DNA of 64,000 nt from an uncultured Pelagibacteraceae bacterium (GTDB lineage: Bacteria > Pseudomonadota > Alphaproteobacteria > Pelagibacterales > Pelagibacteraceae), in the NCBI GenBank assembly GCA_902534465.1, contig CACAPU010000003.1:1-64000 (forward strand), read 5' to 3'. Position 1 is the first letter of the stretch; each line of letters begins with the position of its first letter. The translations under genes and the position numbers were made by a program. The notes beneath the pieces are model-generated. The model ran no database searches. It was not told the DNA's origin and was given only the letters and a program-made list of their open reading frames with translations. Below are positions 60,186 through 62,490 of the stretch, piece after piece.

Positions 60186-60230
60186 TGGTGGGCCCGCCAG
60201 GACTCGAACCTGGGACCAATACATTATGAG
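60186..60230 (-). repeat. Partial tRNA copy (positions ~32-76 of the CAU tRNA at 62278-62353)
   Basis: 45/45 bp identity with 62278-62322, ending at the 5' edge of the anticodon loop. Confidence 0.95.
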
Positions 60231-60349
60231 AGTCCTGAGAGAACACTTTTTAACGTTGTAGTATCTAACTAATTTAATAATAGCAATTTCATTTACACAA
60301 TATGGAATACAATAAAAAAACCTGATAAAGTAAATTATTGTGTACGTGT

Positions 60350-60901
60350 TTAATTTTGTTTTTTTTGAACAATATAAAAAGTACCAGAAAATATTGCAAA
60401 ATAAGTAATTAAAATTACTGTTTGATTATGATCTTCAATACTTGAATACAGAGCACCTGTCACCAATGCAATAATAACAAAAGAGAATTTGAATAATTTT
60501 TTATTGAAATTTTTAAATAATATTTTTATCGAAAAAAAAATACTTATTATGGCGTTCGCTCCTATCCAGATAGGACTTAACGCACCTATGGATTTGTTTG
60601 AAGGAAGTTTTATATTTGCATAGCCGTACCAATTCCAGTTCTTAGGGTGGAGATCTGCTGATAAATGAAGCCCAATTCCTAAAAAAACTCCTATAATAAA
60701 AATATTAATTAAAATCTTTGGTTTAAATGAATTAATTAAAATTAATAACAATGGTAACAATATGCTGTGGGTAATTATTGATCTGTGGCCGAGTGATTTT
60801 TGAAACATCTGGTCTTTATCAGGGAATTCAAGACCAACATACAATCCCAACAAAAATACAATTAGATATTTTAAATTATTGTTTAGATTTTCAGTCCTCA
60901 A
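60350..60901 (-). CDS. YdjM-like membrane-bound metal-dependent hydrolase family protein
   Basis: LGHRSIITHSILLP, GIGLHLSADLHPKNW; several TM segments. Confidence 0.55.
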   Translation of the reverse strand: MRTENLNNNLKYLIVFLLGLYVGLEFPDKDQMFQKSLGHRSIITHSILLPLLLILINSFKPKILINIFIIGVFLGIGLHLSADLHPKNWNWYGYANIKLPSNKSIGALSPIWIGANAIISIFFSIKILFKNFNKKLFKFSFVIIALVTGALYSSIEDHNQTVILITYFAIFSGTFYIVQKKQN

Positions 60902-60952
60902 TTAATTTACCTTCTCAAAAAAACCAAAAAACCACAATCCCTAAAAGTTTTT

Positions 60953-61318
60953 TCATTTAAATTCATCATCTTCAAGAAACTCATCTAGGGAATTTACCAT
61001 TTCCTCGTTATTTTTATTTGTCTCTTGTTTAAGTATTTCTTTATCTTCTTTAATTGATTTTTTTGCTTTATTTAAAAATAAAAAAAAATAAAAATATCCT
61101 CCTGCAATAAGAAGGATTAAGGTATTTTTAATTATAAAAGATAATCCTATATAACTTTTTTCAAATTTAGTTTTATATTCGACATAGTTTAAATACTCAC
61201 TATGAATATAAAAGATCAGAAATATTGATATTGCCAATAATAGAATTCCACCAATTCTCTCTTTTAACCAGAGATATAATCGTCCGTATAAAAACTGTTT
61301 TGTTAAAAATTTAAGCAT
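60953..61318 (-). CDS. Hypothetical protein with two TM segments
   Basis: ORF abutting 61318-61593; two hydrophobic stretches. Confidence 0.6.
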   Translation of the reverse strand: MLKFLTKQFLYGRLYLWLKERIGGILLLAISIFLIFYIHSEYLNYVEYKTKFEKSYIGLSFIIKNTLILLIAGGYFYFFLFLNKAKKSIKEDKEILKQETNKNNEEMVNSLDEFLEDDEFK

Positions 61319-61593
61319 TAGAAATTCACTATCCCAAACATTGCTAAAATTGTTGTCAATCCTCCTCTTAAGCCAAGGCTTTTGATAATTTTCTTTTCTT
61401 CCTTGGCAATCATTTTTCTCATTTCTTCTTTAGTAAAATCACTTTCCTTTTTTTGAGCAAACTCTAACTTTTCTCTTATGGCCTCTAATGCTTTTTTGCG
61501 TATAAGTTTTTTACCATACTTTATAGATGCATCAGTTGCCTCTTTTGATTTATCTATTGTTTTATTTGCTGTTTTTTTAATTTTATCAAGCAT
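61318..61593 (-). CDS. Hypothetical small charged protein with C-terminal hydrophobic segment
   Basis: 91-aa ORF whose stop overlaps the next start. Confidence 0.55.
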   Translation of the reverse strand: MLDKIKKTANKTIDKSKEATDASIKYGKKLIRKKALEAIREKLEFAQKKESDFTKEEMRKMIAKEEKKIIKSLGLRGGLTTILAMFGIVNF

Positions 61594-61616
61594 AAATAAT
61601 TTTTTTCCTCATATTT

Positions 61617-62129
61617 TTATTTTTCAAGTATATTCCAATTATTTAAATATCTATTCCATTTTCTTCTCCAGCCACACCAATAATGATCTTTGCTTTCCTG
61701 AAGAAATATAGCTCTATGAGATGTTACTTTACGTTTAGATCCATCTCTTTTCTTACCTAGATGGTAAATTCTATTTGACTCTTTAAGTGTTTTATCAACA
61801 ACCAACGTAGGTACAATAAAATATTCTTTAACTTTGCCATTGCTTACTCCACAAAGAATTACAAAGTCATCTTTATTATCTTTAAGTAAATCTAAAAATA
61901 TTTCACCTGTCTTTCTTGATGAATACTGAATAGTACCCTTATCACCATCAAAAAGACTATAAGATTTTACTCTAATGAGTTTTTTATTATTTTTTTTTAC
62001 AGCAAATAGATCATAAACTGCTGCGTTCTGAATATTAGAATTGAAATTCCCTACTAGCCAGTTCCTACTAGTTAGTTCTAACTCAACTGATAATTCTCCT
62101 ATACGTCCTATAGTTTGTGCTTTCGCCAT
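61617..62129 (-). CDS. PD-(D/E)XK endonuclease-like protein (homing-endonuclease-like)
   Basis: GRIGELSVELEL...AAVYDLFAVKKNNKKLIRVKS matches E...D...xVK core. ORF track starts at 62144; MAKAQTIG at 62129 likelier. Confidence 0.65.
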   Translation of the reverse strand: MAKAQTIGRIGELSVELELTSRNWLVGNFNSNIQNAAVYDLFAVKKNNKKLIRVKSYSLFDGDKGTIQYSSRKTGEIFLDLLKDNKDDFVILCGVSNGKVKEYFIVPTLVVDKTLKESNRIYHLGKKRDGSKRKVTSHRAIFLQESKDHYWCGWRRKWNRYLNNWNILEK

Positions 62130-62277
62130 ATAAAAACATACCACTCAAGCTTTTAAGTGACCAGTACATTGCCAAAAAAGATTGGAATCAATTTGGTATA
62201 CAATGAAAATATTTTTAGGGGGTTTTTTGCTAAAATTATAAAAAAGCAAATTTTCTAAACGTTGATTTTACTGGATT

Positions 62278-62353
62278 TGGTGGGCCCGCCAGGACTCGAA
62301 CCTGGGACCAATACATTATGAGTGTACTGCTCTAACCAACTGAGCTACAGGCC
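62278..62353 (-). tRNA. tRNA with CAU anticodon (elongator Met; Ile2 not excluded)
   Basis: Minus strand GGGCCTGTAGCTCAGTTGGTTAGAGCAGTACACTCATAATGTATTGGTCCCAGGTTCGAGTCCTGGCGGGCCCACCA folds as a canonical cloverleaf with encoded CCA. Confidence 0.95.
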
Positions 62354-62415
62354 CAAAAATCTACTCTTGTTATAACATTTTTCAACAGTTATCAATTACA
62401 GATAATCCATTAAAC

Positions 62416-62490
62416 TGGTGGGCCGTGTTGGTTACGCTCCAACTACCCCTGCAATGTCAATGCAGTACTCTACTATTGAGCTAACGGCCC
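62416..62490 (-). tRNA. tRNA-Val(GAC)-like gene with non-canonical D and T loops
   Basis: GGGCCGTTAGCTCAATAGTAGAGTACTGCATTGACATTGCAGGGGTAGTTGGAGCGTAACCAACACGGCCCACCA; all four stems pair, anticodon GAC. Confidence 0.8.

Follow-up and report, generated by a model that had tools for sequence, protein, structure and literature searches.

The anticodon loop of tRNA genes is the usual crossover point of tyrosine integrases, and a stem repeat around a 7-bp core is the usual layout. An anticodon loop, that of a cyanobacterial tRNA-fMet, also houses the group I intron of I-Ssp6803I, a PD-(D/E)XK homing endonuclease. Few cell types on Earth are as abundant as SAR11 bacteria, whose tiny genomes are thought to be poor in mobile elements. 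Several kinds of element have been described that are relevant to the locus reported here. CIMEs are decayed ICE or IME derivatives that are moved in cis after accretion (PMC7563491). Tycheposons (Hackl et al. 2023) are described as spanning 4-200 kb and as marked by a tyrosine recombinase (PMC10872708). Phage satellites (PICI/PICMI) carry their own integrase, regulator, and primase (PMC10803314). Islander, which requires an integrase and a length of at least 2 kb, recovers an anticodon-centred crossover as the larger class of islands, with 2083 of 3919 (PMC4383910).

We analyzed the window, the whole 64,000-nucleotide stretch of DNA from an uncultured Pelagibacteraceae bacterium. ARAGORN placed an intact tRNA-CAU at 62278-62354 and a tRNA-Val(GAC) at 62416-62490, both on the minus strand. 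The preliminary description had reported a 45-bp copy of the 3' part of the tRNA-CAU, broken at the edge of the anticodon loop, and this proved correct: 60186-60230 and 62278-62322 are identical at 45/45 positions, the match extends to 52 nucleotides at 96%, and the copy reaches from the CCA end to the 5' edge of the anticodon loop, where it breaks, so that it includes the entire loop. The ORF list and profile searches likewise bore out the report of four minus-strand ORFs without an integrase between the copies; the ORFs encode 183, 121, 91, and 170 amino acids (the last counted from ATG), and searches of the window ORFs against Pfam, PHROG, and NCBIfam found no integrase between the tRNA copies. 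The sole tyrosine recombinase found in the source genome (77% complete) lies on another contig and is an Xer-like protein of 325 aa. We propose that 60186-62277 is very probably a non-autonomous integrative cassette inserted by an integrase supplied in trans, a reading that draws on sequence comparison. Its features are as follows.

60186..60230, minus strand: orphan 3' part of a tRNA-CAU gene, left att; absent from empty-site relatives
60294..60313, plus strand: left paired arm-type repeat TACACAATATGGAATACAAT, with the A of the motif at att nucleotide 110
60337..60345, minus strand: possible third, inverted arm site ATTGTGTAC (equal to GTACACAAT reversed), read from the sequence
60350..60901, minus strand: cargo, 183-aa YdjM-like membrane protein with a TTG start (PF04307 E 3.5e-5, under the curated cut-off)
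60953..61318, minus strand: cargo, 121-aa membrane protein (ORF), unique to the window cassette among 32
61318..61593, minus strand: cargo, 91-aa small protein (ORF), unique to the window cassette among 32
61617..62129, minus strand: cargo, 170-aa nuclease-like protein with an E..D..xVK motif (PHROG 5018 E 1.3e-5, function unknown)
62184..62204, plus strand: right paired arm-type repeat GGAATCAATTTGGTATACAAT, 92 nucleotides before the tRNA (arm-pattern scan and offset test)
62257..62269, plus strand: conserved right-end block AAACGTTGATTTT
62278..62354, minus strand: intact tRNA-CAU, right att, regenerated with the cassette-borne 3' part (77-nt gene identical among the carriers compared)

The anticodon stem of the target tRNA, TACA/TGTA, forms an inverted repeat around the 7-bp loop TTATGAG, which we infer to be the crossover core. 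Because it has a paired G1-C72, the target is not an initiator tRNA, and the parallel drawn earlier with the tRNA-fMet of I-Ssp6803I falls away. The source genome has another CAU tRNA that resembles elongator Met, and the target is therefore probably tRNA-Ile2(CAU). We located mlaC in 118 of 151 genus genomes. In the loci of the eight closest relatives (L012, L013, L015, L016, L020-L023), the mlaC stop lies 1-25 bp from the tRNA and the gap holds no gene, so that the empty sites envisaged in the preliminary description, with mlaC abutting the tRNA, do occur; members of a more divergent mlaC group have at least one other gene between mlaC and the tRNA. The segment at 60186-60230 is the original 3' end of the host tRNA, displaced to beside mlaC, and, in line with the earlier proposal, each insertion regenerates the tRNA, which stands intact beside the cassette. 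Nothing beyond the view from a single genome speaks for a chance segmental duplication in which a tRNA fragment was copied beside ordinary core genes. The empty sites already refute it, and the 31 or more other cassettes that share the ends but differ in content leave it a negligible probability.

Other insertions lie near the same tRNA. On its 5' side, elements with 40-42-nt copies of the 5' half were seen at L163:2894-2935, L166:5695-5734, and L185:1082-1121 (coordinates in the orientation that places the tRNA on the minus strand). The L163 and L166 elements lack an integrase and bear paired repeats of their own (GTGAGTACCTG-type or GTTGGTAAA-type), while the 5'-half copy in L185 is just 188 bp from the tRNA and adjoins a GTTGGTAAA pair. 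The gap between tRNA-Met and tRNA-Val is a second variable spot, holding insertions of 0.9-2.3 kb without detected tRNA copies (L045, L046, L049, L066, L067, L069, L072). We rejected the insertions in this gap as members of the same cassette family, as most have no tRNA copy, the exceptions being the three 5'-side elements.

The same altered junction as in the window was found with different cargo in L018, and the junction pattern occurred in 13 of 399 genus genomes, against 0 for a reversed control pattern; a junction match in G482 was dropped as there is no tRNA there. The right-end block together with the tRNA end was found at 42 loci among 84,980 species genomes, all of them Pelagibacteraceae, and was not found in IMG/VR. 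From contigs that are mostly single-cell assemblies, we obtained 32 distinct complete cassettes at tRNA-CAU, exclusively in Pelagibacteraceae and ranging from 1,061 to 3,323 bp (median about 1.8 kb, n=32). Each is bounded by an orphan tRNA 3' part on one side and an intact tRNA on the other; their interiors are unrelated, their ends are conserved, and none of the 32 contains an integrase gene. Along with the empty sites, these at least 31 other cassettes with the same ends substantiate the earlier suggestion of a tRNA-bounded mobile cassette. Tandem arrays also occur, with two cassettes in G402 and a cassette plus an integrase island in G523.

Most cassettes have a pair of direct repeats at both ends, of the form TACACAAT-N4-TATACAAT (TACACAATTTGGTATACAAT-like). 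On the left, 28 of 32 cassettes have their best consensus match starting at nucleotides 107-110 from the start of att; on the right, the repeat lies 91-92 nucleotides before the right att (the tRNA) in 24 of 32. Across 200 shuffles, neither the left nor the right count rose above 4/32. Among the 27 cassettes of the main type, end columns average 0.4-1.9 bits per site compared with 0.13 in the interior. A scan for the arm pattern gave 26 matches, 25 of which adjoin the tRNA; a reversed control pattern also gave single matches, so it is the pairing, the offset, and the position beside the tRNA, rather than the count, that carry the claim of arms. Such paired repeats at fixed offsets look like the arm-type sites expected of an integrase. 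Other cassettes carry a weaker GTGTAC as the counterpart of the possible third, inverted site. Three cassettes (L157, L171, G387) have a different, GTGAGTACCTG-like repeat and two (G575, L168) fit the repeat pattern poorly, and thus more than one integrase specificity would be needed.

Two larger islands at the same tRNA may supply such an enzyme. The island in G523 lies behind a type-A cassette and adjoins a 53-nt tRNA copy. Its first gene encodes a phage-type integrase of 322 aa (PF00589 E 4.7e-14; PHROG integrase); DNA methyltransferase and restriction-type genes, so named from sequence, come after it. G304 has a 322-aa integrase (L228:1527-2495), 93% identical to that of G523, at the same site, beside a 52-nt tRNA copy. 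Both islands show the paired repeat TACTCACTCTCGTACTCA at att nucleotides 108-109, at most 2 nucleotides from its position in the cassettes, and in both the integrase gene starts at att nucleotide 142, right after the repeat; as the islands run off their contigs, one end and one arm pair are seen in each. Each of the two islands has a tyrosine integrase of phage type and matches the cassettes in target tRNA and in the repeat and its offset; the islands are therefore candidate helpers, and we infer that their integrase would act on the cassettes. The carrier genomes mostly have an Xer-like protein only, including G156, which is 96% complete. An apparent island with a 56% identical integrase was seen in G406 (L212:4064-12348), running from tRNA-Gly(GCC) to the integrase and carrying cargo of the same kinds as the cassettes (GIY-YIG and MKKLLGI-type secreted proteins).

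Helpers were also sought among viruses. The tRNA att core was absent from the phage and IMG/VR contigs scanned (att-core, right-end pattern, and GenBank phage searches). A loose arm pattern occurred in 32 viral contigs; these showed no notable tRNA copy, and the pieces examined contained no integrase motif. A viral contig with the type-B repeat was rejected as a helper because its repeat is a minisatellite. SAR11 genomes contain islands of about 6 kb that resemble phage satellites, at L229:6259-12399 (tRNA-Gly) and L233:3277-9787 (tRNA-Asn); besides small genes, they encode an integrase and a large primase-like protein. One may ask if the cassettes are minimal satellites, mobilized and packaged by a helper phage that provides both integrase and capsid. 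The resemblance of those islands to satellites and the match of some cargo to candidate defence families favor this; the cassettes, however, have no primase, regulator, or recognizable packaging site, and their att core is in no IMG/VR or GenBank phage, which makes a satellite nature unlikely.

Cassettes have been exchanged between divergent hosts. The cassettes of L191 and L180 are 99.3% identical over 1,507 bp while rpoD is 84% identical, and blocks shared by G000 and G472 are 97.5% and 88% identical compared with 78% for rpoD and 71% for mlaC; the 183-aa YdjM-like gene of the window is 97.6% identical in nucleotides to its G472 copy. With cassette genes up to 99% identical where rpoD is at 84%, we conclude that cassettes move horizontally, and since shared cassettes are far more alike than the flanking mlaC and rpoD, they are not simply transferred with their flanks. 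This bears on the possibility that the cassettes are dead remnants (decayed CIMEs), deletion products of integrase islands that spread only by homologous recombination via flanking genes. The CIMEs described as decayed ICE or IME derivatives measure 1.2-13 kb and lie at tRNA as well as other sites (PMC7563491), and the tandem of integrase island and cassette in G523 fits such an origin. Yet both att ends and the repeat offsets are conserved despite highly diverged interiors, the greater similarity of cassettes than of flanks does not fit spread through flanking genes, and tandem stacking represents repeated insertion, so we regard decay as distinctly improbable. Modules within cassettes are exchanged as well: the first and last gene are common to G000, G472 (L179), and G527 (L182) with a differing middle, and L184 consists of the left part of L191 and the right part of L170. 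A 45-bp stretch coding for the signal peptide MKKLLGIVVLGLLLS begins many cassette genes (L191 interior 529-573 and 1367-1411) and is a possible recombination foothold for module swaps.

The cargo includes T5orf172/MUG113 GIY-YIG proteins, an HNH protein, a NucS-like nuclease, a GHKL ATPase, and hydrolases, as well as secreted and membrane proteins. Two cargo proteins match PADLOC candidate defence families (PDC-S57, E 3e-68; PDC-S02, E 7e-44), and some of the cargo is probably anti-phage. The preliminary description had assigned a PD-(D/E)XK core to the 170-aa protein and proposed it as the possible engine of the element. The motif residues are indeed present (E12 or E18, D40, R53-V-K55), but the fold found no support, with no match for it in Pfam, NCBIfam, or PDB searches; an AlphaFold model had a pLDDT of 51.5 and was not usable. 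Under the endonuclease scenario, this protein cuts the anticodon loop of an empty tRNA gene and repair copies the selfish cassette in, for which one can cite the nuclease-like motif, the position of the gene next to the tRNA, and the recurrence of nuclease genes as cargo (GIY-YIG, HNH, NucS-like). However, the gene is present in 3 of 32 cassettes (the window's and two others) and missing from the remaining 29, and homologues 97% and 76% identical lie away from any tRNA, beside lpd and groES in G708 and G719, each adjoining a GIY-YIG gene. The tRNA 3'-half copies for which a search beside homologues had been suggested are absent at these two loci, as are the repeats. Homing has no need of paired repeats at fixed offsets, the tRNA-CAU is intact and without a match to an intron family, so that no group I intron is detected, and homology of the protein to I-Ssp6803I, or to any chain in the PDB, is not detectable. 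Given its presence in few cassettes and its close homologues at other loci, a homing-endonuclease mechanism is not supported and seems highly improbable; the 170-aa protein is cargo, not engine. The nuclease-like gene is repeatedly found beside a T5orf172 GIY-YIG gene (PADLOC PDC-S57), at L202:3204-4329, L203:2812-3946, and L179:1604-2728, and the pair is a possible two-gene defence unit.

Insertion by an integrase acting in trans is supported, as judged from the sequences, by the anticodon-loop core within a stem repeat, the arms at fixed offsets, and the matching integrase islands. An island or an unseen phage would supply the integrase, which would bind the arm repeats and the anticodon-stem core. 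Recombination of a circular cassette with the tRNA gene would restore the tRNA at every insertion, and newcomers would enter at the intact tRNA, so that cassettes could form tandem stacks. The nuclease-like, membrane, and secreted proteins would be exchangeable cargo.

More tentatively, and with somewhat less than even confidence, we suggest that SAR11 bacteria share a communal pool of integrase-less cassettes at a tRNA anticodon loop, with several repeat specificities that would each be served by a trans-acting integrase of its own, inserting 3' or 5' of one tRNA gene, shuffling modules, and carrying anti-phage and cell-surface genes. Such a pool, if real, would be for tyrosine integrases the counterpart of MITEs or integron cassettes and would pass cargo through genomes that otherwise shed mobile DNA. 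The cassettes may explain how small defence and surface genes spread without a visible mobility gene, and elements of this kind would escape searches that demand an integrase or a minimum length of 2 kb. The target and the recognition code of the cassettes are defined and a candidate integrase is named, which makes the gain of accessory genes in SAR11 directly testable.

Among known systems, I-Ssp6803I is similar in that a nuclease-like gene lies near the anticodon loop of a CAU tRNA, but the cassettes have no intron, do not occupy a tRNA-fMet, show no detectable homology to it, and mostly do not carry the gene. The integrase, regulator, and primase genes of phage satellites are absent from the cassettes and partly present in other SAR11 islands. 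Islander-type tDNA islands likewise combine a tRNA with a displaced fragment and include the anticodon-centred crossover class; the integrase and 2-kb requirements of that method would filter the cassettes out, a possible reason for their being overlooked. In keeping with tyrosine-integrase elements, the cassettes show attL/attR duplication of the tRNA end with regeneration of the gene and paired arms at a fixed distance from the core. The passages of SAR11 and marine literature searched, a set that excludes the tycheposon paper of Hackl et al. 2023 itself, make no mention of such cassettes. By setting, tycheposons are closest, being tRNA-bounded cargo islands of streamlined marine bacteria; going by the description in PMC10872708, the cassettes differ in their size of 1.06-3.3 kb and in having no tyrosine recombinase. 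By structure, the closest are CIMEs, which are also att-flanked, free of an integrase, 1-13 kb long, furnished with cargo genes, and accreted in tandem at a tRNA 3' end; the cassettes keep their flanking att sites and have no integrase or other recombination gene. Unlike CIMEs, many cassettes occur singly without a resident partner, and no conjugation module stood out in a non-systematic look. Integrase islands do occur at the same site, but no backbone common to them and the cassettes emerged. Whereas CIMEs are moved in cis, the conserved arms and high identity of the cassettes point to mobilization in trans. MITEs and CALINs ('hitchers', PMC11389934) are likewise short and have only recognition ends, with the enzyme encoded elsewhere; they use transposases or integron integrases, whereas the cassettes would use a tRNA-targeting phage-type integrase.
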